64,000 nt of DNA from Caballeronia sp. NK8 (lineage in GTDB: Bacteria; Pseudomonadota; Gammaproteobacteria; Burkholderiales; Burkholderiaceae): NCBI RefSeq assembly GCF_018408855.1, contig NZ_AP024324.1:248001-312000 (forward strand). The letters are read 5' to 3'. Positions 30,605 to 46,449 of the stretch are shown piece after piece (within the stretch, counting starts at the first letter, position 1; each line of letters starts with the position of its first letter). Below the pieces are notes generated by a model. It saw only the letters and a list, made by a program, of their open reading frames with translations, did not search any database and was not told the origin of the DNA. Both the position numbers and the translations under genes were made by a program.

Positions 30605-32611
30605 ATGATGCTCACCGACAACGATCGCATCGCGCAGGTGACCTGCGCGTTCGGCAAGAACGCGCTCGTGCTGTATCGCATGCGCGGACGCGAGGAACTG
30701 GGACGCCTCGCGCAATGGGATCTCGAACTGCTCGCCGACCGCTCGAATCTCGACATCGCGAAGATGCTCGGCAGCGACTTCTCGCTGTCGCTCGCGATTC
30801 CCTCGGGCGGCACGCGCGAGTACAACGGCATCGTCACGGCGTTCGAGCTGGCGCGGCCCGCGAGCACGCAGCCGAATCGTCCGGCGCTGTATCGCGCGAC
30901 GGTGCGCCCGCGCCTGTGGCTGCTCACGCGCGCGTCGCACTGCCGCTTCTTCCACCAGATGACCGCGTCCGCGATCATCGGCCGCGTGCTCGCCGACTAT
31001 CACATCGACTTCGAGAACAAGTGCTCGGCGACGTATCCGGGCCTCGAACACTGCGCGCAGTACCGCGAGACGGATTTCGATTTCGTGAGTCGGCTCGCCG
31101 AGCGCGAAGGCATTTACTACTACTTCGAGCATCGGGGCGGCAAGCATCGGCTGATTCTCACGGATTCGTCGCAGGCGCATGGCGCGACGCCGCATTGCGA
31201 TGCACTGCCGTTTCGCGCGCAGAGCAGCGCGCCGCGCGAGCACGAGTGGGTCTACGCATGGTCCACGGGCGGCGAAGTGGCGACAGGCATCGTCGAGCTC
31301 AACGATTACGACTTCGAGAAGCCGTCGCAATCGGCGCAGCAAGGTCTCGTCGCGCGCGCACATCGCGTGAAGCGCTTCGACGAGCCCGTCTACGCGATGC
31401 AGGAGCACGCGCCGGGCTACACGCGCCACGAGGACGCCGAGCGTCTCGCACGCGCGCGCGTCGAGGCGCATCAGGCGGCCAATGTCTTCGTGAGCGCGCG
31501 CACGACCGCGCGCGCCATCTGGCCTGGCGGAACCGTGCATTTGAGCGATCATCCGCTCGCGCAGCACAACGGTGAGTACCTCGTCGTTTCGGCCGAATAT
31601 GAAATCAATTCGGATGACTATATTTCCACTTTCGATGCGCGCGCCCGGCCGCCCGTGTTCGATTGCGCCTTCACGGCGTTGCCGCGCGACGCCGGATTCC
31701 GGGCCGCGCGCAGCACGCCGCGCGCGTGCGTGGCGGGGCCGCAAACGGCGGTGGTCGTCGGGCCGAAAGGCGAAGAGATCCATACCGACAAATACGGCCG
31801 CATCAAGGTGCAGTTTCATTGGGAGCAGCTCGGACCAGAGGCGTCGCGCGAGTCGCTGCAGCGCTGCTGGGTGCGCGTCGCGCAGCCCTGGGCCGGCAAG
31901 GGCTACGGGGCGTTCTTCCTGCCGCGTATCGGACAGGAAGTGCTGGTGCATTTCATCGAAGGCGATCCGGATCAGCCGCTCGTGATCGGCAGCGTCTACA
32001 ACGCGGCGCAGACGACACCTTACGAACTGCCTGCGAAGATGGCCCGCACCACGCTCAGGAGCAATTCGACGAAAGGCGGCAACGGCTTCAACGAAATGCG
32101 CTTCGACGATACGAAGGATGCCGAGCAGTTGTTCTTTCACGCCGAGCGCGATCTGGAAACCTGGGTCAAGCACGACGCGCTCACGCGCATCGGCCGCGAG
32201 CGGCATGTAATCGTCGAGCAGGACGACTACGCGCGCTGCGGCGGAAATCGCAGCGACGCGGTGCAAGGCGACCAGCGCACGGGCATCGGCGGCAAGTTTT
32301 CCCTCGAAATCGGCGGCGATACACATCACAAGAGCGGGGCGAATATTTCGGTGGGGGCGGGTGTTAACGTCGATGTGAAGGGCGGAGCGAACGTCACCAT
32401 CGAGGCCGGCGTGACGCTTACGCTCAAGGCGGGCGGCAACACCATCGTGCTCGGACCGTCCGGCATCGCGATCAGCGCGGCCGGGCCGGTGTCGATCGAC
32501 GGCGTGGTCGTGCAGATCAACTGCGGCGGGGCAGGCGCCGGCGCGGGCGCGGCGAGCGCGTCGCCCGATGCGCCCGCCGCGCCCCGCCAGGCCGACGACG
32601 GCTCCAGATGA
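30605..32611 (+). CDS. vgrG: T6SS spike protein VgrG (TssI)
   Basis: 668 residues. The gp27-like part begins DNDRIAQVTCAFGKNALVLYRMRGREELG and contains CQYRETDFDF-type QYRETDFDFVSRLAEREGIYYYFEH. The gp5-like OB fold holds IHTDKYGRIKVQFHWE and RVAQPWAGKGYGAFFLPRIGQEVLVHFIEGDPD. The end is a beta-helix of short repeats (GVNVDVKGGANVTIEAGVTL) followed by an Ala/Gly-rich tail. There is no recognisable effector domain. It forms the trimeric spike under the PAAR-like tip. Confidence 0.97.
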   Translation: MMLTDNDRIAQVTCAFGKNALVLYRMRGREELGRLAQWDLELLADRSNLDIAKMLGSDFSLSLAIPSGGTREYNGIVTAFELARPASTQPNRPALYRATVRPRLWLLTRASHCRFFHQMTASAIIGRVLADYHIDFENKCSATYPGLEHCAQYRETDFDFVSRLAEREGIYYYFEHRGGKHRLILTDSSQAHGATPHCDALPFRAQSSAPREHEWVYAWSTGGEVATGIVELNDYDFEKPSQSAQQGLVARAHRVKRFDEPVYAMQEHAPGYTRHEDAERLARARVEAHQAANVFVSARTTARAIWPGGTVHLSDHPLAQHNGEYLVVSAEYEINSDDYISTFDARARPPVFDCAFTALPRDAGFRAARSTPRACVAGPQTAVVVGPKGEEIHTDKYGRIKVQFHWEQLGPEASRESLQRCWVRVAQPWAGKGYGAFFLPRIGQEVLVHFIEGDPDQPLVIGSVYNAAQTTPYELPAKMARTTLRSNSTKGGNGFNEMRFDDTKDAEQLFFHAERDLETWVKHDALTRIGRERHVIVEQDDYARCGGNRSDAVQGDQRTGIGGKFSLEIGGDTHHKSGANISVGAGVNVDVKGGANVTIEAGVTLTLKAGGNTIVLGPSGIAISAAGPVSIDGVVVQINCGGAGAGAGAASASPDAPAAPRQADDGSR

Positions 32612-32631
32612 ACGGACACCAAGGAGACTTC

Positions 32632-33981
32632 ATGTATCTCACGCTCACGGTGGAGAGCTATCAGGGCAGCGCGCCCGATGCGCCGCTCGCGTGCCGCTTC
32701 GGCGCGGCGGGCGGCACCATCGGGCGCGGCACCGGCAACGTGCTGGTGCTGCCGGATGCGGCGAAGACCGTGTCGCGCGTGCATGCGCGGATCGACTGGA
32801 CCGAGGACGGCTGGCGGCTCGCCGATCTCGGCGGCAATCCGAGCCGGGTCAACGGGCGGCCGCTCGCGGGCGGCCAGCCCGCGCCGCTCGCCGACGGCGA
32901 CGTGCTGGAGATCGGCGGCTACCGGCTCGGCGTGCGATCGATGGCGCGCGCACCCGCTGCAGCCTTCGACGCGCCGCTCGGCGTGCATGACCGTCGCGGC
33001 TTCGATCCTCTGGATGCGGCGAGCGCGCAGCAAGAGGGCGCGGCGCAGACCTTCGCGCACGATCCGCTCGCCTGCGCGGCGGTGCTGGCGGATTCGCCGC
33101 TGCCGGGCTCGCGCTTCGATCCGCTCTACGGTGAACATGAAGCGCCTCACCGGCTCGACGGCCATGCGGCGTTCGCCGGATCGCAGAGCGATCACGTGCC
33201 GCCCGAGCAGGTCGCCTACGCGCCGCCCGTGCGCGCGATCACGCATGCGCTGGCGGGCGGCATTCCGCACGACTACGATCCGCTCGGCGACATGGCGCTG
33301 GCGCCTTGCACGAGCGCCCCGGAATTGCCGATCCCCACGACGGCCGCCGCGAACGACGCGGTAGCCGAATCGGCCTACGCGGCGTTGCTCGACGGCATGG
33401 GCGTCGATGCCGCCGCGCTCAACACACGCGATGCCGCCGAGGTCGCGCGTCTCGCGGGCGCGATGCTGCGCACGGCGGTGCGAGGCGTAGTGGACGTGCT
33501 GCTGTCGCGCTCGGTGATGAAGCGCGAAATCAGTCTCGACACGACGATGCTGGTCCAGCGCGACAACAACCCGCTCAAGTTTTTCCCCGACGGCGACGGC
33601 GCGCTCGCGCAGATGCTGCGTGGCGCGAGCGCCGGCTATCTGCCCGCGCAGAGCGCGCTTCAAGGCGCCTTCGACGATATCCGGCGTCACGAACTCGCGG
33701 TCCTCGCGGGCACGCGCGCGGCCATGCAGCACCTGCTCGGGCGCTTCGATCCGCAGGCGATCGCGGCGGCCGCCGACACCCGGCGCGGCTGGCTCGACTG
33801 GCTGCCCGCGTGCCGCAAGGCGCGTCAGTGGGAGCGTCTGGTGGCGCTGCATGCCGAACTGACGCATGCGAGCGCCGACGACCTCCAGGCGCTCTCCGGC
33901 AGCGCTTTCAACGACGCATATGAGCGGCAGGCGAACGGTTTCGCCGATGCGAAGCCGCTGGCTCCTTCAATCCTTCATTGA
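32632..33981 (+). CDS. tagH: T6SS FHA-domain protein TagH/Fha
   Basis: 449 residues from ATG 32632, with AAGGAG well placed; an earlier ATG at 32608 overlapping vgrG is possible. The N-terminal FHA domain (about 10-105) shows GRGTGNVLVLPDAAKTVSRVHARI and GNPSRVNGRPL. The C-terminal 190 residues, from about AYAALLDGMGVDAA, are the T6SS FHA C-terminal domain, including NNPLKFFPDGDGAL. FHA domains bind phosphothreonine. With the kinase and phosphatase at 40691-42929 it is a likely phosphorylation target that licenses T6SS assembly. Confidence 0.93.
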   Translation: MYLTLTVESYQGSAPDAPLACRFGAAGGTIGRGTGNVLVLPDAAKTVSRVHARIDWTEDGWRLADLGGNPSRVNGRPLAGGQPAPLADGDVLEIGGYRLGVRSMARAPAAAFDAPLGVHDRRGFDPLDAASAQQEGAAQTFAHDPLACAAVLADSPLPGSRFDPLYGEHEAPHRLDGHAAFAGSQSDHVPPEQVAYAPPVRAITHALAGGIPHDYDPLGDMALAPCTSAPELPIPTTAAANDAVAESAYAALLDGMGVDAAALNTRDAAEVARLAGAMLRTAVRGVVDVLLSRSVMKREISLDTTMLVQRDNNPLKFFPDGDGALAQMLRGASAGYLPAQSALQGAFDDIRRHELAVLAGTRAAMQHLLGRFDPQAIAAAADTRRGWLDWLPACRKARQWERLVALHAELTHASADDLQALSGSAFNDAYERQANGFADAKPLAPSILH

Positions 33982-36674: not shown

Positions 36675-36708
36675 GTCATTCGTCAAGCAGATCAGCATGG
36701 AGATATCG

Positions 36709-39700
36709 ATGAAAAAGATCGCAGGAGCGCTCAGGACGCCGCAATGGCTCACGCTTGCGGGCGTGCTCGCGTTGCTCGTCGTCGTGTGGTTCGAAGGGCC
36801 GCTGTTCGCATTCGATGGCCACGCGCCGCTCGAGACGGCTCGCCACCGCTTGATCGCGATGGCCGCGCTCGTCGCCGTGTGGGGAATCGTCTGGGGCGCG
36901 CGTCTCGTCGCCGCGCGGCTCGTCAATCTGCGCTTCATGAGCGGCGTGGCGGGGCAGGGACAGGCGCCAGCGGCCGGCAGCGCGGAGCTCGCGGTGCTGC
37001 GCGAGCGCTTCGAGCAGGCGCTCGCGATCCTGCGGCAGGCGCGCATGAAAGGCGTCAACGGCCGTCAATGGGTGTATCAGTTGCCGTGGTACATGTTCAT
37101 CGGCGCGCCGGGCACCGGCAAGAGCACGGCGCTCGCGCATTCCGGCCTGCGCTTTCCGCTGCGCGAGAAGCTCGGCGAGGACGCGATCGGCGGCGTCGGC
37201 GGCACGCGTCACTGCGACTGGTGGTTTACCGACGACGCCGTGCTCGTCGACACGGCAGGCCGCTTCACGACGCAGGACAGCGACGCACACGCCGACGAAT
37301 CCGCGTGGACCGGCTTCCTGCAACTGCTGCGCAAGTACCGGCCGCGGCGGCCGCTGAACGGCGTCATCGTCACGCTCTCGGCGGCGGATCTCGTGCGTGA
37401 GGACGACGCCGCGCGCGATACGCACATCCGCACGATCCGCAGCCGCCTCACGGAGCTGAGCGAACGGCTCGGCGTGCGCTTTCCGGTGTACGTGGTCGTG
37501 ACGAAGTGCGACCTGCTTGCGGGCTTCACCGAATTCTTCGACGATCTCGGCGAAGCGGAGCGCAACCAGGTCTGGGGCATCACCTTCGCGCTCGACGAGT
37601 CGCCGGGGGCGAGCGCGGCGCTCGCCGCATTCCCCGCCGAATTCGATGCGCTCGGCACGCGGCTGCAGGCGCGCGTGCTGCATCGCATGCAGCGTGAGAC
37701 GGACGTCGCGCGGCGCGCGCGCATCTACGGCTTCGCGCAGCAGTTCGCGGGGCTGCAGCCGGCGCTCGGCCGTTTTCTCGATGGCGCGTTTCGCGGCACG
37801 CGCTTCGAGGCGTCGCCGCTCCTGCGCGGGGTCTACTTCACGAGCGGCACGCAGCACGGCCGGCCGATCGACCGCGCGATCAGCAGCATCGCGCAATCGC
37901 TCGGCTTGCGTCGCGATGCGGCGTATAACCGCGATGCGTCGGGGCGCGCGTATTTCATCAACCGGATGCTCAAGGACGTGGTGATCGCGGAAGCCGGGCT
38001 GGTGGGCGCGAACGCCCGCTTCGAGCGCTGCAGCGCGTGGCTGCGGCGCGGCGCGCTCGCGCTGGTCGGCGTGACGCTCGCACTCGCGCTCGCGTGCATG
38101 GCCGTGAGCTATCAGCGCAATCGTGCCTATGTCGCGGCGTTCGAGCGCGAGACGCAGCATGTCGGGCAACTGGCGCGCGAGGCGAACGCGGCCGCCGGTC
38201 CGCTCGCCGTGCTGCCGCTCCTGGACGCGGCGCGCGCGCTGCCCGGCGGCTATGCCGACGCCGGCAAGCCGGTGCCGTGGCTCACGCGGCTCTGGCTCTA
38301 TCAGGGCGACAAGCTCGGTCAGGCGGCGCGCGTGACGTACCGGCGTCTGCTCGATCAGACCTTGCTGCCGCTCGCGGTCGGCACCTTGACGCAGGAATTG
38401 CGCGATGGCGCAACGGGCAATGATTCGGCATCCGAAGCGCATCGGTATGAAGCGCTGCGCGCCTATCTGATGCTCGGCGACGCGCGCCATTTCGACGCCG
38501 CCGCGCTGCGCGCGCATCTGGTTCCGGCGCTCGCGGGTGACGCGGGTCCCGCGCAGCGCAGCGCGCTCGACGCGCATCTCGCCGCGCTGTTCGACAAGAC
38601 GCACTTCGATCCGTCGCTCCCGCTCGACGACGCGCTCATCAGGACGGCGCGCGCGTGGCTGGCGGAGTTGCCGCTGTCGCAGCGCGTCGGCAACCGGGTG
38701 GACGGCGAACTCGCGCAGGGCAACATCGCCGCGTTCAGCGTGAGCGCCGCGGCCGGACCCAACGCGCCGCTGCTGCTGCGGCGCACGAGCGGCGCGCCGC
38801 TCACGGCGGGCGTCGCGGGCGCGTACACGCGCGCCGGCTATGCGCAATACATGCGCCTGCGCGACGCCGCGCTCGCCAATGTCGAGAAGGACGCCTGGGT
38901 GCTCGGCCGCGACGACGTCGCGCTCACGCCCGACGGCATCGCCGCATTGCGCGCCGCACTCGACGAGCGTTACTTCGACGCGTATATCCACGCATGGGAC
39001 GGACTGCTCGACGATGTGAGCGCAGCGCCCGTCAGCGGTCTCGCCGATGGCGCGCGTATCGCGAACGAGCTGTCCGCGCCCGACTCGCCGCTCAGGAAGT
39101 TCATCGTCGCGGCGGCGCGCGAGACGACGCTCGGCGCGAACCCGACGACGCGCGTCGACGACCACTTCCAGCCGCTGCATCAGCTCGCAGGCAAGCCGGG
39201 CGACGCCACGCCGCTCGATCGCGCGCTCGCGCCGCTCAAGGATGCCGCCGTCTATCTCGATGCCGCCGACGCCGCGCGCAGAATGGGCCAGCCCGCGCCC
39301 GTCGGCGACGCGCTCGGCAAGCTGAGGCTCGCGAGCCAGACGAGCCCGGCGCCGCTCACGCCGGTCGCCGCGTCGATCGCCACGGCCGGCACGGCGCTCC
39401 TCGAAGGCGGCGAGCGCGCCCGGCTGGATGCGCAGTGGAACGCGAACGCCGGCCCGCTGTGCCGCCGCGCGCTCGATGGCCGCTATCCCTTCGTGCGTGC
39501 TTCTACGCGCGACGTCGCCGCCGACGACTTCGGCAAGCTGTTCGCGCCGGGCGGCCTCATCGACGATTTCTTCCAGAAGAACCTGGCCGCGCTGGTCGAT
39601 ACGAGCGGGCCCGTCTGGCAATGGCGCGCCGGCACGCCGCCGGCGGGCATGCCGCGCGACGCCCTCGCGCAATTCCAGCGCGCCGCGCAGATCCGCGATG

Positions 39701-40119
39701 CGTTCTTCCACGACGGCAGCCGCGACATGTCGATCCGTTTTCGCGTGAAGGCACTCTCGTTCGATCCGGCGCTGACGCAACTGAATCTCGACATCGACGG
39801 GCAGCAGCTTGCGCTCAGACAGGACGGCCTCCAGTCGATGCTGCTGCAGTGGCCGAGCGGCAAGAACACGGGCCGCGCCAGCGCGCAGTTCGATCCGGCT
39901 TTTGCGACGCAAGCCGCGCCGCTCGACGCGAGCGGTCCGTGGGCGCTCCTGCATCTGATCGACGCGGGCAGGCTCGACGCCACCGCGCAGCCGGACCGCT
40001 ACCGGCTCACGCTCGATTCCGCCGGACGCAAAGCCGTGCTGCAGCTGGACGCGACGAGCGTCGTCAATCCTTTCCGGCGCGCGCCGCTCGAACAGTTTCG
40101 CTGTCCGGAACATCTGTGA
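36709..40119 (+). CDS. tssM: T6SS membrane protein TssM (IcmF)
   Basis: 1136 residues from ATG 36709, which has GGAG 6 bases upstream; an ATG at 36697 is an alternative. Two N-terminal membrane helices lie near 10-30 and 50-65, and a third near 445-465. Between them is a GTPase-like domain with Walker A GAPGTGKS (about 132-139) and VVTKCDLLAGF. The long periplasmic region ends in the IcmF C-terminal domain (LSFDPALTQLNLDIDGQQL, SGPWALLHLIDAG). It spans the envelope with TssL and docks the baseplate. Confidence 0.97.
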   Translation: MKKIAGALRTPQWLTLAGVLALLVVVWFEGPLFAFDGHAPLETARHRLIAMAALVAVWGIVWGARLVAARLVNLRFMSGVAGQGQAPAAGSAELAVLRERFEQALAILRQARMKGVNGRQWVYQLPWYMFIGAPGTGKSTALAHSGLRFPLREKLGEDAIGGVGGTRHCDWWFTDDAVLVDTAGRFTTQDSDAHADESAWTGFLQLLRKYRPRRPLNGVIVTLSAADLVREDDAARDTHIRTIRSRLTELSERLGVRFPVYVVVTKCDLLAGFTEFFDDLGEAERNQVWGITFALDESPGASAALAAFPAEFDALGTRLQARVLHRMQRETDVARRARIYGFAQQFAGLQPALGRFLDGAFRGTRFEASPLLRGVYFTSGTQHGRPIDRAISSIAQSLGLRRDAAYNRDASGRAYFINRMLKDVVIAEAGLVGANARFERCSAWLRRGALALVGVTLALALACMAVSYQRNRAYVAAFERETQHVGQLAREANAAAGPLAVLPLLDAARALPGGYADAGKPVPWLTRLWLYQGDKLGQAARVTYRRLLDQTLLPLAVGTLTQELRDGATGNDSASEAHRYEALRAYLMLGDARHFDAAALRAHLVPALAGDAGPAQRSALDAHLAALFDKTHFDPSLPLDDALIRTARAWLAELPLSQRVGNRVDGELAQGNIAAFSVSAAAGPNAPLLLRRTSGAPLTAGVAGAYTRAGYAQYMRLRDAALANVEKDAWVLGRDDVALTPDGIAALRAALDERYFDAYIHAWDGLLDDVSAAPVSGLADGARIANELSAPDSPLRKFIVAAARETTLGANPTTRVDDHFQPLHQLAGKPGDATPLDRALAPLKDAAVYLDAADAARRMGQPAPVGDALGKLRLASQTSPAPLTPVAASIATAGTALLEGGERARLDAQWNANAGPLCRRALDGRYPFVRASTRDVAADDFGKLFAPGGLIDDFFQKNLAALVDTSGPVWQWRAGTPPAGMPRDALAQFQRAAQIRDAFFHDGSRDMSIRFRVKALSFDPALTQLNLDIDGQQLALRQDGLQSMLLQWPSGKNTGRASAQFDPAFATQAAPLDASGPWALLHLIDAGRLDATAQPDRYRLTLDSAGRKAVLQLDATSVVNPFRRAPLEQFRCPEHL

Positions 40120-40694
40120 TGGCGTCGCCGGGTGTCGCCGGATGCTTCGGCAAGCTGCGCGGCAACGGCGACTTCGTGACGCGGCGTCTGCCGCAAGGCT
40201 TCGTCGTTCCCTGGGATGCGATGTTGCAGGCGGGCCTGCTCGCGAGCCGCGCGGCGCGCGGGCGCGCCTGGCTCGACGCGTATCTGACCGCGCCGCTGTG
40301 GCGCTTCGCGCTCGGCGGCGGCGTGCTGGGTGAGGACGGCTGGGCGGGCGTGCTGATGCCGAGCGTCGACAGTGCGGGCCGGCATTTTCCCCTGACGATC
40401 GCCGCGCCCGTCGAAGCGGGCGCGTGGTCCGCCTGGCGTCCGCATTCGCACGCGTGGTTTGCGCATTGCGGCGCGCTCGCGCTCGCGACGCTCGGCAAGG
40501 GCGCGCGTCTCGCGGATTTCGATGCCGGATTGCTGGCGCTATCGCTCGGACATGACGCGAACGAAGTTTCGACGCCGTCGCATGCAGGAGCGTGGGGAAC
40601 GAGCGTCTGGTGGCACGCGCAATCGGCGCGCACGAGCGCAGGTCTGCCCGATGCCGCGTTCGTCGCGGCGCTCTTCGATGACCGTGCCGGTTAG
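40119..40694 (+). CDS. tagF: T6SS accessory protein TagF
   Basis: 191 residues. Its ATG overlaps the tssM stop (TGATG), so it is the last gene of the main operon. The pattern GCFGKLRGNGDFVTRRLPQGFV and LAPLWRFAL-like TAPLWRFALGGG, then GVLMPSVDSAGRHFPLTIAAP, is typical of the BMA_A0400-type TagF family. In Pseudomonas and Agrobacterium TagF represses T6SS after translation, through the Fha protein. It converges on the phosphatase gene, the stops overlapping by 4 bases. Confidence 0.93.
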   Translation: MASPGVAGCFGKLRGNGDFVTRRLPQGFVVPWDAMLQAGLLASRAARGRAWLDAYLTAPLWRFALGGGVLGEDGWAGVLMPSVDSAGRHFPLTIAAPVEAGAWSAWRPHSHAWFAHCGALALATLGKGARLADFDAGLLALSLGHDANEVSTPSHAGAWGTSVWWHAQSARTSAGLPDAAFVAALFDDRAG

Positions 40695-41518
40695 ACGCCG
40701 TCGAAGCAGGCGATGACCGCCGTGATGTTGTCCTTGCCGCCAGCATCGAGCGCGAGCGCCACCAGCCGCTCGCAGGCGTCGTCGATGCCCTGCGGCGTCA
40801 TCGCTCCGAGGACCGTTTCGATTTCGCCATGCGGCACCTCGCCGTGCAGCCCGTCGCTGCATAGCAGATAACGGTCGCCGGGCAGCCACGCATGCGTTTC
40901 GATGATGGGCGCGATCGACGGCAGCGGCCCGAGCGCCTGCAGCAGCACGTTGCGCGGCGGCAAATGTTCGATGACACCGCGCTCCAGCGCCTGCTGATAG
41001 AGCGTCTGGTCGCGTGAAAGTGGCGTGAGCGCACCGTCGCGATAGCGGTAGAGGCGGCTGTCGCCGACGTGAAGCGAGATCAGCCGCGCCGAGCCGGACG
41101 GCTGCCAGATGCCCGTCAACGTGGTGCCCATCGACCGGTGGGCGAGGCGCTCGCGCAGGTTCATCGCGTGAAGCGTCGCGTTGGCGTGGTCGAGCGCGTC
41201 GGCGGCGGCGCGCATCGCGCATGCCGATTCATCGTGTACGGTGGCGTCGGGATCGTAGGCGTGGGCGGCGTCGGCGTGAGCGCGCGACGTCGTATCGGCG
41301 GCGAGTCGCGTGGCGATGCAGTCGAGCGCGAGCGCGCTGGCGCGCGCGCCGAAGGCATGGCCGCCCATGCCGTCCGCGACCGCGACGAGGTTCAGCGCCG
41401 GATCGATCAGAAAGCGGTCCTGGTTCTCGCGGCGCACGCGGCCGGCATCGGTGAGGCCGGCCGCCGCGCATGCGGCAAGGCGCACCGGCGCGCGGCGGAT
41501 GAGCGTGTCGGGATTCAT
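40691..41518 (-). CDS. pppA: PP2C-type protein phosphatase of the T6SS (PppA)
   Basis: 275 residues from ATG 41518. PP2C motifs are complete: GRVRRENQDRFLID, VAVADGMGGHAFG with two metal-binding Asp positions, MGTTLTG, SLHVGDSRLYRYRDG, LLCSDGLHGEV and GGKDNITAVIACFDGV. It removes phosphate from threonines placed by the PpkA-type kinase and so would shut the T6SS off. It is the last gene of a four-gene operon, 40 bases after the kinase. Confidence 0.93.
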   Translation of the reverse strand: MNPDTLIRRAPVRLAACAAAGLTDAGRVRRENQDRFLIDPALNLVAVADGMGGHAFGARASALALDCIATRLAADTTSRAHADAAHAYDPDATVHDESACAMRAAADALDHANATLHAMNLRERLAHRSMGTTLTGIWQPSGSARLISLHVGDSRLYRYRDGALTPLSRDQTLYQQALERGVIEHLPPRNVLLQALGPLPSIAPIIETHAWLPGDRYLLCSDGLHGEVPHGEIETVLGAMTPQGIDDACERLVALALDAGGKDNITAVIACFDGV

Positions 41519-41558
41519 CGGTCGTGCTCCTTCGGATGCGGGTCGTGGTGAATGGGCG

Positions 41559-42929
41559 CTACAGTCCGACATCGCGCTGGAAACGCGCGCGGTCGTGTGG
41601 ATCGGAGATGGCCGCCGCGAGCCGTTCGTGCAGCGCGCGCAGGCTGGCCGCGCGGGCGGCCTCGCGTTTCGCGATGAGGGTGGCGATCGGACCGAGATAA
41701 ACGGCGAGCTTGAGCGCGGCGGCCCGCACCTCTTCTGCATCGAGCGATGAGGGCGCCATTGCCGCCCCATGCGCCGTGCCCGCGCTCGACCCGTCCGCGA
41801 AAGCGGCGACGAACTGCGCGCGGCCGCGCTCGGAAGGCACATGCGGCGCGAGTAGCGCGACGAGCGCCGGCAGATCCGGCGTATCCGCGCTGCGCGCCGC
41901 CGCGCGCCGCACCAGCAGACGCGCAACCGGGCCGATCTGCGCGGCGAGCCGCGCCTCGACCGTGGCGAGCGTGGCGGCGGGCCACATCGTGAGCGACGGC
42001 AACGAATCGCCGCGCCACGAGCCCGTTCCCGACGCGAGCGCAGCGGCTGACGTCACCGGCTGCGCTTCGAGAATCGTGCAGTCGTCCGAGGCCTGGTGGA
42101 GCGCCAGCGCCTGCCGCAGCGCATCGGCCGTCTGAAAGCGCGCGGCGGGACGACGGGACAGCGCGCGCATCAGCACGTCATCGATCCCGGACGGCAGCGC
42201 CGGGTTGCAGACGGACGGCATGCGCGGCGTCTCGTGCATGACCTGCCGCATCACTTCCGCCTGCGATGCGCCCGCGAACGGCCGGCATCCGGTAAGCATC
42301 TGATAGAGCACGATCGCGGCGGAGAACAGGTCCGAGCGTCCATCTACGGATTCGCCCGTGAACTGCTCCGGCGACATGTAGCAAGGCGTGCCGATCATCG
42401 CGCCCGCCAGCGTGAGCGTCGACGATTCGACATGCGCGACGCCGAAGTCCGCGACTTTCAGCCGGCCTTGCTCACTGACGAGCAGGTTCGCGGGCTTGAT
42501 GTCGCGATGCACGACACCGTGCGCGTGCGCGAAGCCGAGCGCGGCGAGCAGTTGCGCGAACCAGTCGAGCGCGCTCGCGAGTTCGAGCGGACGGCCCGCG
42601 TCGAGCAAGGGCTTCAGGGCGTGTCCGCAGACCAGCTCCATCGCGATATAGGCGGTGTCATCGGCTTCGCCGTAGTCGTACACGCCGACGATGTTCGGAT
42701 GCGTGAGCCGTCCGGCGGCCTGCGCCTCGCTGCGCAGACGCGTCATCAGACTCGCGCGCTCGCCGCTCTCCAGCAGCTCGTGGCGGACCGTCTTCAGCGC
42801 GACATGCCGCTCGATGTGCGGATCGAAGGCGCGATAGACCACGCCCATTGCGCCCGTGCCCAGCACCGCTTCGACGCGGTACTTGCCCAGTTGCGTGATG
42901 CGCGGCGGGTCCATCGCAGCGGCTTTCAT
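41559..42929 (-). CDS. Ser/Thr protein kinase of the T6SS (PpkA-like) with a duplicated C-terminal domain
   Basis: 456 residues. Hanks-type kinase domain: glycine loop GTGAMG 24-29, Lys46, HRDIKPANLL with catalytic Asp143, DFG 161-163, and GTPCYMSPEQF. There is no membrane helix, unlike canonical PpkA. After a linker, two copies of a domain of about 53 residues occur at 324-376 and 401-453 (QIGPVARLLVRRAAA and YLGPIATLIAKREAA, each ending near RAQF/RARF), resembling the uncharacterised C-terminal module DUF8082. ATG 42929 follows GAGG and lies one base from the sensor gene stop. Confidence 0.9.
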   Translation of the reverse strand: MKAAAMDPPRITQLGKYRVEAVLGTGAMGVVYRAFDPHIERHVALKTVRHELLESGERASLMTRLRSEAQAAGRLTHPNIVGVYDYGEADDTAYIAMELVCGHALKPLLDAGRPLELASALDWFAQLLAALGFAHAHGVVHRDIKPANLLVSEQGRLKVADFGVAHVESSTLTLAGAMIGTPCYMSPEQFTGESVDGRSDLFSAAIVLYQMLTGCRPFAGASQAEVMRQVMHETPRMPSVCNPALPSGIDDVLMRALSRRPAARFQTADALRQALALHQASDDCTILEAQPVTSAAALASGTGSWRGDSLPSLTMWPAATLATVEARLAAQIGPVARLLVRRAAARSADTPDLPALVALLAPHVPSERGRAQFVAAFADGSSAGTAHGAAMAPSSLDAEEVRAAALKLAVYLGPIATLIAKREAARAASLRALHERLAAAISDPHDRARFQRDVGL

Positions 42930-42930
42930 C

Positions 42931-43809
42931 TCATGCCTCGATCATCTTGAACGCTTCCACGAGACTCGTTTTCATGCGCGCGAACGACGCGGCGAGCGAA
43001 GCGATCTCGTCGCGGCCGCGCTCGCTGAAGTTCGCGCCGTCGAGTTGTCCGAGGCTGGCTTCATCGGCGGCGCGCGAGAGGGCGCGGATGCGCCGCGTGA
43101 CGAGCAGATGCACCATCACGTTCAGCGCGATCAGCAACAGCACGAACACGGCGAAGAGCGAGCCGAGAAAGGTGCGCAGCACCGCGTTGCTGCGCGCGAT
43201 GGGCAGCGCCATCGGCACCGAGACGAAATCCGCGCCGATGACGTCGTGCATCGCCCAGTTGAAGCCGTTGTCGGGACCGTATTTGTCGACGAGCGTTTTC
43301 GGGGCGCGCGAGGGCACGCTGTGGCATTCCATGCAGGCGGCGTCGTTGATGCGGTTCGGGCGCGCAATGTAGAGGTTCTGCCCGGTCGGGGTGTCGCGCA
43401 GTCCGACGACTTCCTTCAGTTCGGGCTTGTCGTGCAGATGGCGGATGACGTCCGCTTCCCAGTCCGAGGGACGGTCGCGCGGATTGGTCGGGTTCAGCAT
43501 CGTCGAGCGATAGGAGTATCCCGCGAGGCGCTTCTCCAGCGTCATCAGCGTTTCGACGGCCGAGAAGGCCGGCACCGATTGCGGCACGAAGCTGTACTTG
43601 AGCTGCGTTTGCAGAAGCGGCGTGACTTGCGTCGCGGTGTAGTTCTGCGCCGCGCTCGCCGCTTCCATGAGGACGCGCGCGTTCTGCACGGTTTCGTCGA
43701 TGGCCGCGCGACGCAGCAACTCGCGCGCGGCGAATCCGGCCGACACGAAGCCGACGACGAACACCGCCAGAAACACCAGATTGAACTTGACGGCGAGCGA
43801 CAGTCTCAT
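42931..43809 (-). CDS. Membrane sensor with haem-binding DUF3365 domain and HAMP
   Basis: 292 residues from ATG 43809, which overlaps the preceding gene (ATGA). Membrane helix 1 is at about 7-27. The periplasmic domain (30-210) matches the DUF3365/Tll0287-like type and contains a c-type haem motif, CMECH at 159-163. Helix 2 is at about 212-236, then a HAMP domain to 288. The protein stops there: no kinase, cyclase or methyl-accepting output domain. The next gene is the T6SS kinase, one base away, so signalling to that soluble kinase is the natural inference. Confidence 0.85.
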   Translation of the reverse strand: MRLSLAVKFNLVFLAVFVVGFVSAGFAARELLRRAAIDETVQNARVLMEAASAAQNYTATQVTPLLQTQLKYSFVPQSVPAFSAVETLMTLEKRLAGYSYRSTMLNPTNPRDRPSDWEADVIRHLHDKPELKEVVGLRDTPTGQNLYIARPNRINDAACMECHSVPSRAPKTLVDKYGPDNGFNWAMHDVIGADFVSVPMALPIARSNAVLRTFLGSLFAVFVLLLIALNVMVHLLVTRRIRALSRAADEASLGQLDGANFSERGRDEIASLAASFARMKTSLVEAFKMIEA

Positions 43810-44696
43810 GATTCCACCTCGGTTGACGGGTTCTGCACAGGCGAGACCGCACGCCGGCGCGGCATGGCGGGAGGCGGGCACAGCACGCGCCGCCATTCGG
43901 GAAGATTGCGCAGGTTCTGCCGCACCTGGGCGCGGAACGGCTCGCCCTGCGCGAGCGGCCGAAAGCGTGCGACGAAGCCACGCCGGATCGCCAGCGGCGC
44001 GCTCAGCCAGTCGGCGATATCGGCATATGTCGCCGCGCGGCCCTGCACGGGCGCGACGAGCTTCGCCTTCGCGGGCGCCGCCGATGAAGCGAGCGGATCG
44101 CGAAAAGGCAGCGGCATCGCGGCGATGAACGACGTCGCGGGGCGCTTGCCCACATCGAGCGGCTTGCCGGTCTCGCGTTCGGCGTAATGTTCGCCGTCGA
44201 GCTGCTGATGCGCGTCGGCATGTTCGGGCAGGGCGAGCGTCATGCTGCCCGTTTCGATGAAGAGCGAAGTCATGTCGCGGCTTGCATGCAGTACCGCCGC
44301 GCCGTCGAGCAGGCTCGCGTCGAGCGCGGGCGTATCGATCGACAAGGGCCCGGCCGTGCCCGTGCGCGGACGCGCGATCTTGATCCAGCCTGAGAGGAGC
44401 GCGAGTGCATCGCCGTGCGGCGCGGCATCGATGGCGACGCGCGTGTTGGCGCCGAGCGCGACGATCGTGCCGTCGCCGTCCTCGATTTGCGCGCCGCCGA
44501 TTGCGTCGGTGGCGAGCAGATCGCCTGGCTGCAGCGCGATGGGCGCATCGACATTGAACACGGTCGTCGCGCGGATCAGCGTGACGGTTCCTTCGGGCAG
44601 CAGCATCGCCTGGCCCGCGTGCGCGCCGTGCAGCGCGCACAGACATGCAAGGGCGACGCTCAGGCGAATGGTGTGCAGCAGGGTTCGGGCGTTCAT
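43806..44696 (-). CDS. FecR-like periplasmic protein
   Basis: 296 residues. Signal peptide at 1-27 with cleavage after AHA. The mature part begins GQAMLLPEGTVTLIRATTVFNV, then GDLLATDAIGGAQIEDGDGTIVALGANTRV, the FecR beta-domain pattern, followed by a variable C-terminal half with FVARFRPLAQGEPFRAQVRQ. FecR domains sense or transmit envelope signals. It is first gene of the operon with the haem sensor, kinase and phosphatase and may be the ligand-binding partner of the sensor. Confidence 0.8.
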   Translation of the reverse strand: MNARTLLHTIRLSVALACLCALHGAHAGQAMLLPEGTVTLIRATTVFNVDAPIALQPGDLLATDAIGGAQIEDGDGTIVALGANTRVAIDAAPHGDALALLSGWIKIARPRTGTAGPLSIDTPALDASLLDGAAVLHASRDMTSLFIETGSMTLALPEHADAHQQLDGEHYAERETGKPLDVGKRPATSFIAAMPLPFRDPLASSAAPAKAKLVAPVQGRAATYADIADWLSAPLAIRRGFVARFRPLAQGEPFRAQVRQNLRNLPEWRRVLCPPPAMPRRRAVSPVQNPSTEVES

Positions 44697-44913: not shown

Positions 44914-46449
44914 CTATCCGTTCAAAAAGCCGAGCACGGCCTTGCGCACCTTCAGGTCCCAGGTCTGCTCTTCCTTGTGACTCGTGGCGAGCGTGAGCAG
45001 ACCTTTGATCATCGCGTCGTCGGAACTGAATGAGAAGCCCGCATCGCCCAGATAGTCCGATCCCCAGACCTTGAGGCTGTCGACGTACTTGCAGCCGGCC
45101 GTGAATTCCGCCTGCGTGACGATGTTCTCGTCATCCTTGAACATCGCGAGGAAGTGCATCTTGTCGCCGCAGATGCCGGAGTTGAGAGCCAGCACCGAGA
45201 GCGCCGGAATCGGCACGGCGTAGCGCTTGAACCAGCCGTTGAAGGCGAGCGGCCGGGTATGCAGCGCGTCGCGTTGCATGCGCGCTTCCCAGTATCCCTT
45301 CGCCTGCTCGCAAAATCGCTTGATGCGCTTGATTTCCACGATCTTCCAGATCACCTTCGCGAGTGTTTCCATGATCGACACGACCGCATCGATGATGGTC
45401 GACGCACCCTGGCTCGCGAACTGCAGGCCGAGGCTCGCGCCGCCCTTGACGAGGTCGTATACGCCGGAACCGATGCTCAGCTTCATCGCGCGCCTGATCG
45501 CTTCCACGATGGTTCCGGGATGCCCGGTCAGCAGTTGCACGTCGCGGCCTTGCACCCACTCGCGATACTTGGTGATGCTGCTATCGACGGTATTGGCGAT
45601 GCCCTTGGCGATATCGAGGCCCGCGCCGATGAACGGCGCGAGCGTGGCGAGCAGCTTGCCGCACAGGAAATCGATGAGCTTGCGCAGCAGCGCGGGCATC
45701 GTGTCGAGCGCGAAACCGCCGGGATCGTTGCGGATGTCGGCGACCTTTTCGCGAATCATGTCCCACAGCTTTCTCGCCCCTTCCTCGACTTTGGCGCGAA
45801 TGGCCTCGTACAGCCGCTGCGCCGCGCTGCTCAACGCCGGCAACGTGAGCGTGGAATTCGTGAGCTGATTCGATTTCGTGAGAGTTGGTTCCTTGCGCCT
45901 CCTGATCTTCTGCTGCACCTGTTCGAGCGCGAGCGAGGCCGATTTTTGCACGACACTGTTGTCCAGCACCGCGGATGCGCGCGCCGCCGCGACATTGGTG
46001 TCCGGCGCGAACCCGAGGCCCACGTTGGTGATATCGAAAGCGCCTTCCAGCAGCACCTGAAACGTGTCGTCCTCCAGTTCCAGGTTGCCGAAGAGGTACA
46101 GCACGCCGAGGCGCGCGTTGATGAGCGCCGGCGTCATGAAGTCCTGCGCGCCAGCCGCGGCGTCCGTGTCGCCGTTGCCGCGCAGTTGCTGATCGAGTAG
46201 CGTGAAGTATTTCGAGCCGTTGCGCGAAGCGCTTTTCCAGGCATCGTCGGGGCCGGCCGAAAGTTGCCAGCGCTCGTACGCCTGCACCAGCGAGTGGAAT
46301 TGATGAACCGTCCGGTTGCGCTGATACATCAGGATCTGCTGATCCAGATCCTTCAGCGCCGCGCCGCGTACCTGAAGCAGCGCCGAGGTTCCTCTTAGCC
46401 ATTCATCGTGGGGAACGATGTCGGGCAACTGGGCATAAGCGTAGGGCAT
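44914..46449 (-). CDS. Unrecognised 511-residue protein at the T6SS locus (candidate cargo)
   Basis: No signal peptide. The N-terminal 180 residues look helical and soluble (HDEWLRGTSALLQVRGAAL, then FHSLVQAYERWQLSAGPDDAW). A basic linker KIRRRK at 181-186 follows. Residues 250-290 and 335-375 are long hydrophobic to amphipathic helices (TMPALLRKLIDFLCGKLLA; STIIDAVVSIMETLAKVIWK). The C-terminal part from 400 is mixed. No catalytic motif was recognised. The hydrophobic centre in a protein lacking a signal sequence recalls membrane-active T6SS cargo. It follows a 44-residue gene by 52 bases. Confidence 0.8.
   Translation of the reverse strand: MPYAYAQLPDIVPHDEWLRGTSALLQVRGAALKDLDQQILMYQRNRTVHQFHSLVQAYERWQLSAGPDDAWKSASRNGSKYFTLLDQQLRGNGDTDAAAGAQDFMTPALINARLGVLYLFGNLELEDDTFQVLLEGAFDITNVGLGFAPDTNVAAARASAVLDNSVVQKSASLALEQVQQKIRRRKEPTLTKSNQLTNSTLTLPALSSAAQRLYEAIRAKVEEGARKLWDMIREKVADIRNDPGGFALDTMPALLRKLIDFLCGKLLATLAPFIGAGLDIAKGIANTVDSSITKYREWVQGRDVQLLTGHPGTIVEAIRRAMKLSIGSGVYDLVKGGASLGLQFASQGASTIIDAVVSIMETLAKVIWKIVEIKRIKRFCEQAKGYWEARMQRDALHTRPLAFNGWFKRYAVPIPALSVLALNSGICGDKMHFLAMFKDDENIVTQAEFTAGCKYVDSLKVWGSDYLGDAGFSFSSDDAMIKGLLTLATSHKEEQTWDLKVRKAVLGFLNG

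Follow-up and report, generated by a model that had tools for sequence, protein, structure and literature searches.

A candidate split haem receptor kinase encoded beside a type VI secretion cluster in Caballeronia sp. NK8

In the NosP/NahK and H-NOX/kinase pairs, a separate gene for a nitric oxide (NO) sensor lies beside a kinase gene; these sensors are cytoplasmic haem b proteins and their partners are histidine kinases. We describe here a similar separation of genes in a 64,000-nucleotide stretch (the window) of the 9.2 Mb genome of Caballeronia sp. NK8 (contig NZ_AP024324.1, positions 248,001 to 312,000), where the gene for a Tll0287 (DUF3365)-HAMP haem sensor adjoins that of a soluble Hanks-type Ser/Thr kinase, next to a type VI secretion system (T6SS) cluster. 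The known T6SS threonine phosphorylation pathway, in the excerpts of PMC10482370, relies on a membrane-associated PpkA with TagQRST or RtkS; the PpkA proteins of Acidovorax and P. aeruginosa have a transmembrane (TM) segment and a periplasmic domain in the excerpted texts (PMC10482370, PMC12607579), and that of Acidovorax spans the membrane (excerpts of PMC12607579). Receptors with HAMP as their sole cytosolic portion, such as Af1503 of Archaeoglobus fulgidus, have no recognisable effector, and Af1503 is tightly coupled to Af1502, a protein of the four-helix STAC domain with its LGPx(x)A motif (PMC4834066); the STAC domain of CbrA has been proposed as a coupling element (excerpts of PMC13022988). 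On the sensor side, a P. azotoformans protein of the same architecture (Target 2) binds c-type haem, holds NO and releases it slowly (2026 preprint, PMC12889525).

On the minus strand of the window the genes follow the order FecR-like protein, sensor, kinase and PP2C phosphatase, convergent with the plus-strand T6SS cluster. The FecR-like and sensor genes are joined by an ATGA overlap, one base separates the sensor stop from the kinase start, and the PP2C start (ATG at 41518) lies 40 nt past the kinase stop; an earlier note on this DNA, made from the sequence alone, had placed the four genes, the two tight junctions and the CMECH motif of the sensor correctly. In profile scans, the T6SS cluster contains TssA, TssC, TssF, TssH, VgrG, TagH, TssK, TssL, TssM and TagF, with TagF, TssM, TssL, TssK and TagH beside the four genes. 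As in the PpkA-Fha-PppA pathway, a Ser/Thr kinase, a PP2C and TagF are found beside the T6SS cluster and an FHA protein (TagH) within it; unlike PpkA as presented in the excerpts of PMC10482370 and PMC12607579, kinase and receptor are here separate genes. The kinase has no hydropathy segment above 1.54 and, on hydropathy only, neither the TM helix nor the periplasmic C-terminus of PpkA, so we do not file it as a canonical PpkA. In the sensor, two segments are strongly hydrophobic (2.77 and 2.26), and the protein ends just past its HAMP domain, which bears out the earlier description of a kinase without a membrane helix next to a sensor without an output domain.

We propose that the pair forms a haem split receptor kinase controlling the T6SS, an explanation to which, taken whole, we assign a probability of about 0.67. 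In a dimeric inner-membrane receptor, c-type haem would be covalently attached to a periplasmic Cache domain, and gas binding (NO most likely) or a haem redox change would move the terminal HAMP domain. The soluble kinase would dock on the HAMP end by means of a pair of STAC-like four-helix repeats at its C-terminus, whose state would be altered by the HAMP movement, switching the kinase. In T6SS loci it would replace the membrane-bound PpkA and phosphorylate TagH/Fha, its predicted substrate, or another T6SS part; the PP2C would reverse this phosphorylation, PP2C and TagF acting as brakes, and the FecR-like protein may be a periplasmic helper. The explanation is built on gene order, motif conservation, pairing, a shared repeat and co-occurrence, which are established by the comparisons that follow, and we infer the docking, the ligand, the substrate and the sign of the response.

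The named set comprises 39 loci of close relatives in several genera, and 53 wider stretches bring the total to 92 full-length loci; the wider samples were 300 order-level and 369 class-level genomes, searched with a threshold of E 1e-10. Sensor matches, partial and fused proteins included, occur in 43/300 and 34/369 genomes, respectively. The sensor adjoins a kinase in all 39 named loci, and since this adjacency recurs across several genera in the same gene order, we reject a chance arrangement. Among the 92 loci, the neighbour is a kinase in 78 and a cyclase in seven. Near the sensor, a same-strand open reading frame (ORF) matching the FecR-like profile is found in 37 of the named loci and a PP2C match in 27. 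Under a strict hydropathy rule none of the 39 named kinases has a TM segment, and among the outputs checked a single frame (L165) has a hydrophobic stretch, near its start. One stretch (L143) contains a second, partial sensor match within the same 20 kb.

The sensor can be assigned to the sCache_heme family (PF11845) by its profile match, its CXXCH motif and its Tll0287 Cache fold, and its only two cysteines both lie in CMECH. CXXCH is present in 94 of 95 sensors, the exception (L157) lacking the whole middle segment; the loss of this motif among orthologs, which the earlier note had named as grounds for abandoning a haem sensor, did not occur. Like Target 2 (PMC12889525), the protein has two TM helices, a periplasmic CXXCH Cache domain, a HAMP end and no axial cysteine, and it is of similar size (32.2 kDa here, 34.5 kDa for the tagged Target 2); unlike those of this module, the gene neighbours of Target 2 are not described in that preprint. 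The haem domain itself is already known, and so is NO binding by Target 2, which has this architecture (PMC12889525). By analogy with this relative's biochemistry, the sensor would bind haem covalently as a dimer, and NO is most likely its ligand. Alternatively, the receptor may sense redox conditions in the periplasm or the respiratory chain, as the redox roles assigned to stand-alone family members and the quick autoxidation of Target 2 would allow (PMC12889525); we consider this possible but the less probable case, because the redox type (Tll0287 and P. putida) has an axial cysteine ligand, whereas no cysteine beyond CXXCH occurs in 95/95 sensors (columns of residues 31-210; the L157 row is partial), so that our sensor does not fit this type, and the slow NO release by Target 2 also argues against it. 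The AF1503 match of the HAMP domain (Table 1) adds little support, since AF1503 accounts for several of the solved HAMP structures listed.

A repeat of about 63 residues, typically present twice and built around an IGP[VI]A-like core, is found at the C-terminus of all 78 sensor-adjacent kinases. Nine other kinases are encoded in the same stretches: seven lack the repeat, and the two that have it each lie one gene away within the same run of genes. Training of the repeat profile used the sensor-adjacent kinases and these two, and no cyclase. The seven cyclases (L117, L129, L138, L139, L140, L142, L157) form one protein cluster, and all have an adenylate/guanylate cyclase match (six above the Pfam cut-off, L140 below). 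The kinase profile matches them only with its own C-terminal end, that is, at the repeat, of which L140, L142 and L157 hold one copy each; these weak matches are hence cyclases, and we rejected their reading as degenerate kinases. A reverse search gave strong repeat matches in 20 of 368 other genomes. All 20 also have the sensor, found in 23 genomes (nominal Fisher value 3.5e-30, kinship not taken into account); in G723, one of these 20, about 260 kb separate the repeat and sensor genes. Of the three sensor genomes without a strong repeat match, two (G483, G623) give weak matches, and in G708 the sensors are located on short contigs or parts of contigs. Three loci outside the training set (L167, L168, L244) have two repeats each. 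Weak repeat matches without a haem sensor (L200-L202) are small proteins adjoining dCache receptors that end at HAMP; by eye only, the N-terminus of the L200 protein is roadblock-like.

In the PDB, the most probable match of the repeat is Af1502, the STAC partner of the receptor Af1503, which itself ends at HAMP. The length of about 63 residues compares with about 68 in the four-helix STAC bundle. The LGPx(x)A pattern, with any of LIVMYF in first position, is found in 160 of 172 repeats, between model helices H5-19 and H22-33, as the STAC motif joins helices 1 and 2, and the repeat shares with STAC its pairing with a HAMP-ending receptor. Comparison with the PDB using two profiles did not give significant homology to STAC, hhalign to alignment-picked STAC regions of four SLC5-kinase frames returned a probability of 6.6 in the wrong register, and Pfam and NCBIfam offered no convincing name; Af1502 itself has been reported to be undetectable by sequence-profile searches. 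The PDB-profile and hhalign comparisons do not establish membership of the STAC family, and we keep the term STAC-like. As with Af1503/Af1502 (PMC4834066), an outputless HAMP receptor is paired with an LGPx(x)A-bearing domain. In that system, however, STAC stands alone or in SLC5-linked signalling proteins; in the present module a Ser/Thr kinase or cyclase bears two STAC-like repeats within its own chain, and a haem Cache serves as sensor. Because the repeat is common to kinases and cyclases and its best PDB match is Af1502, the sequences suggest, as the most likely arrangement, a split receptor kinase in which the repeats of the kinase dock on the HAMP end of the receptor. The earlier view that sensor and kinase complete each other thereby gains strong comparative support and a plausible docking route, direct docking being presumed.

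Several observations limit this explanation. It was the repeat that drew attention to the cyclases, so the cyclase pairing is not independent of it, and for this reason we lowered our confidence from 0.68 to 0.67. The pairing rule also has irregular cases: a kinase that adjoins a sensor lacks a detectable repeat (L248:2-1489), two loci (L257, L169) lack kinase or repeat in the stretch examined, L172 is a longer, fused-type frame, and in G728 a repeat kinase at a contig end occurs with no sensor match. The L248 kinase, the non-significant STAC homology and the fact that helical bundles match many folds would suit another role for the repeats, such as kinase dimerisation or TagH binding, with the receptor acting directly on the kinase domain; we judge this unlikely, as the repeat is common to otherwise different kinases, cyclases and small proteins, whose common factor is a neighbouring HAMP-ending receptor.

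In 33/39 named loci, the module has at least two T6SS gene families in its vicinity; in a 34th case, L048, a 6.5 kb contig bears vgrG and a portion of tagH, and the loci without T6SS genes are L040, L043, L044, L046 and L052. Seven of the 53 wider stretches are T6SS-linked (L113, L120, L122, L160-L163), and most other lineages examined carry the module outside T6SS clusters. In the distant alphaproteobacterium Skermanella, a plasmid has the order tagF, sensor, kinase, tssH. In a quick sensor tree, a single clade, largely FecR-bearing, holds most T6SS loci; Skermanella stands separately, on a long branch whose place is unsure, and the T6SS label needs six changes on the tree. In 13 of 20 genomes chosen from loci without nearby T6SS genes there is no TssM match, three Rugamonas loci hold the module away from T6SS genes though their genomes contain TssM, and the neighbours of 10 scanned non-T6SS loci show no common pathway. 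A T6SS-only module is ruled out by the loci outside T6SS clusters and the genomes without TssM match. Judged from the non-T6SS loci, these genomes and the sensor tree, the module is wider and probably older than its T6SS link, which probably had two or more origins or else was carried from one locus to another. The co-occurrence of sensor, FecR-like and soluble kinase genes in T6SS loci, which the earlier note proposed to look for, is thus found, but is not T6SS-specific. The genome that holds the window has two Hanks kinases among the matches found; by eye, the second (L204:871-3249, contig C2) has one hydrophobic segment and a C-terminal domain and looks membrane-bound. TssM matches occur at three places in this genome, one below the cut-off, and the second kinase is on another contig. 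That the pair is real but merely lodged in the T6SS locus, with substrates elsewhere and the T6SS using another kinase or none, would agree with the genomes without TssM match, the Rugamonas loci and this second kinase, but is improbable given the 33 named loci in T6SS clusters, the recurrence of the linkage in Skermanella, and the adjoining TagF, TagH in the cluster and PP2C in 27/39, which match the known threonine phosphorylation set.

In the open-licence literature we found no paper joining DUF3365, the haem domain of this sensor, with T6SS or Ser/Thr kinases, and the words secretion, serine and operon are absent from the main text of PMC12889525. T6SS, PpkA and the HAMP domain occur together in PMC10587679, and norCBD and H2-T6SS of P. 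aeruginosa are the subject of another paper. The suggestion that haem or NO control of T6SS was undescribed holds, within these searches, for the T6SS link, but the NO-binding haem domain is in print; the earlier note is supported in part, in that the sensor-kinase pairing and CXXCH stand, while the module is not specific to T6SS. The parts are known; what appears new is how they are combined: the haem receptor and the Ser/Thr kinase or cyclase are separate proteins, and kinase and cyclase have a STAC-like plug in common. Some 90 loci converge on a single docking module for different outputs of HAMP-ending receptors. Whether the repeats are a general plug for such receptors, driving interchangeable outputs (Ser/Thr kinases, cyclases, small adaptors) in a widespread split-receptor architecture that in Burkholderiales would subject T6SS firing to periplasmic control by NO or redox state, we regard as an even bet; if true, it would answer how HAMP-only receptors signal. 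For the T6SS, the switch based on threonine phosphorylation would receive a chemical input through haem in place of the sensing of envelope damage, so that a chemical signal arising in the envelope may turn a weapon cluster on or off. The NO-binding Cache receptors, described only recently, would also gain a plausible partner.

Table 1. Coordinates of the module, its T6SS neighbours and related receptors (window positions unless a locus is given)
Feature	Position	Strand	Evidence
FecR-like protein, probably periplasmic, signal-peptide-like N-terminus (by eye)	43806..44696	-	PF04773 24.3 bits, cut-off 24 (marginal)
sCache_heme (Tll0287/DUF3365) receptor, TM-Cache-TM-HAMP, 292 aa, no output domain	42931..43809	-	PF11845 8e-35
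CMECH c-type haem attachment motif, sensor residues 159-163	43321..43335	-	
HAMP domain, sensor residues about 236-284	42958..43104	-	HAMP profile 2e-7; best PDB profile match AF1503 HAMP
Soluble Hanks-type Ser/Thr kinase, 456 aa; GTGAMG, VALK, HRDIK, DFG	41559..42929	-	PF00069 2.4e-50
STAC-like repeat 1 of kinase C-terminus, IGPVA motif	41784..41978	-	
STAC-like repeat 2 of kinase C-terminus, LGPIA motif	41562..41750	-	
PP2C phosphatase, PppA-like	40691..41518	-	PF13672 (PP2C_2) 1.1e-12; Stp1/IreP model 9.6e-45, under that model's curated cut-off
TagF; gene end overlaps PP2C gene end	40074..40694	+	PF09867 4.7e-39
TagH/Fha, FHA-domain T6SS protein, candidate kinase target	32608..33981	+	TIGR03354 7.6e-77; PF00498, PF20232
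TssM	36697..40119	+	TIGR03348, 1128 bits
dCache receptors ending at HAMP with small one-STAC-like-repeat proteins	L200:1051-3010, L201:256-2067, L202:1483-3156		

A short gene family occurs in nine loci (L138:10442-10915, with relatives in L117, L139, L141, L145, L146, L147, L151 and L165); three members scanned had no Pfam match, and in four inspected loci (L117, L138, L141, L151) the gene lies upstream of the sensor, the place of the FecR-like gene in the window. In Rhodovulum (L167:7858-8853), the gene before the sensor encodes a peptidoglycan-binding protein, another periplasmic-type neighbour. In the window, a 511-aa ORF (44914-46449, minus strand) without Pfam or NCBIfam match lies near the FecR-like gene, as it does in 22/39 named loci, in reversed orientation in L034.
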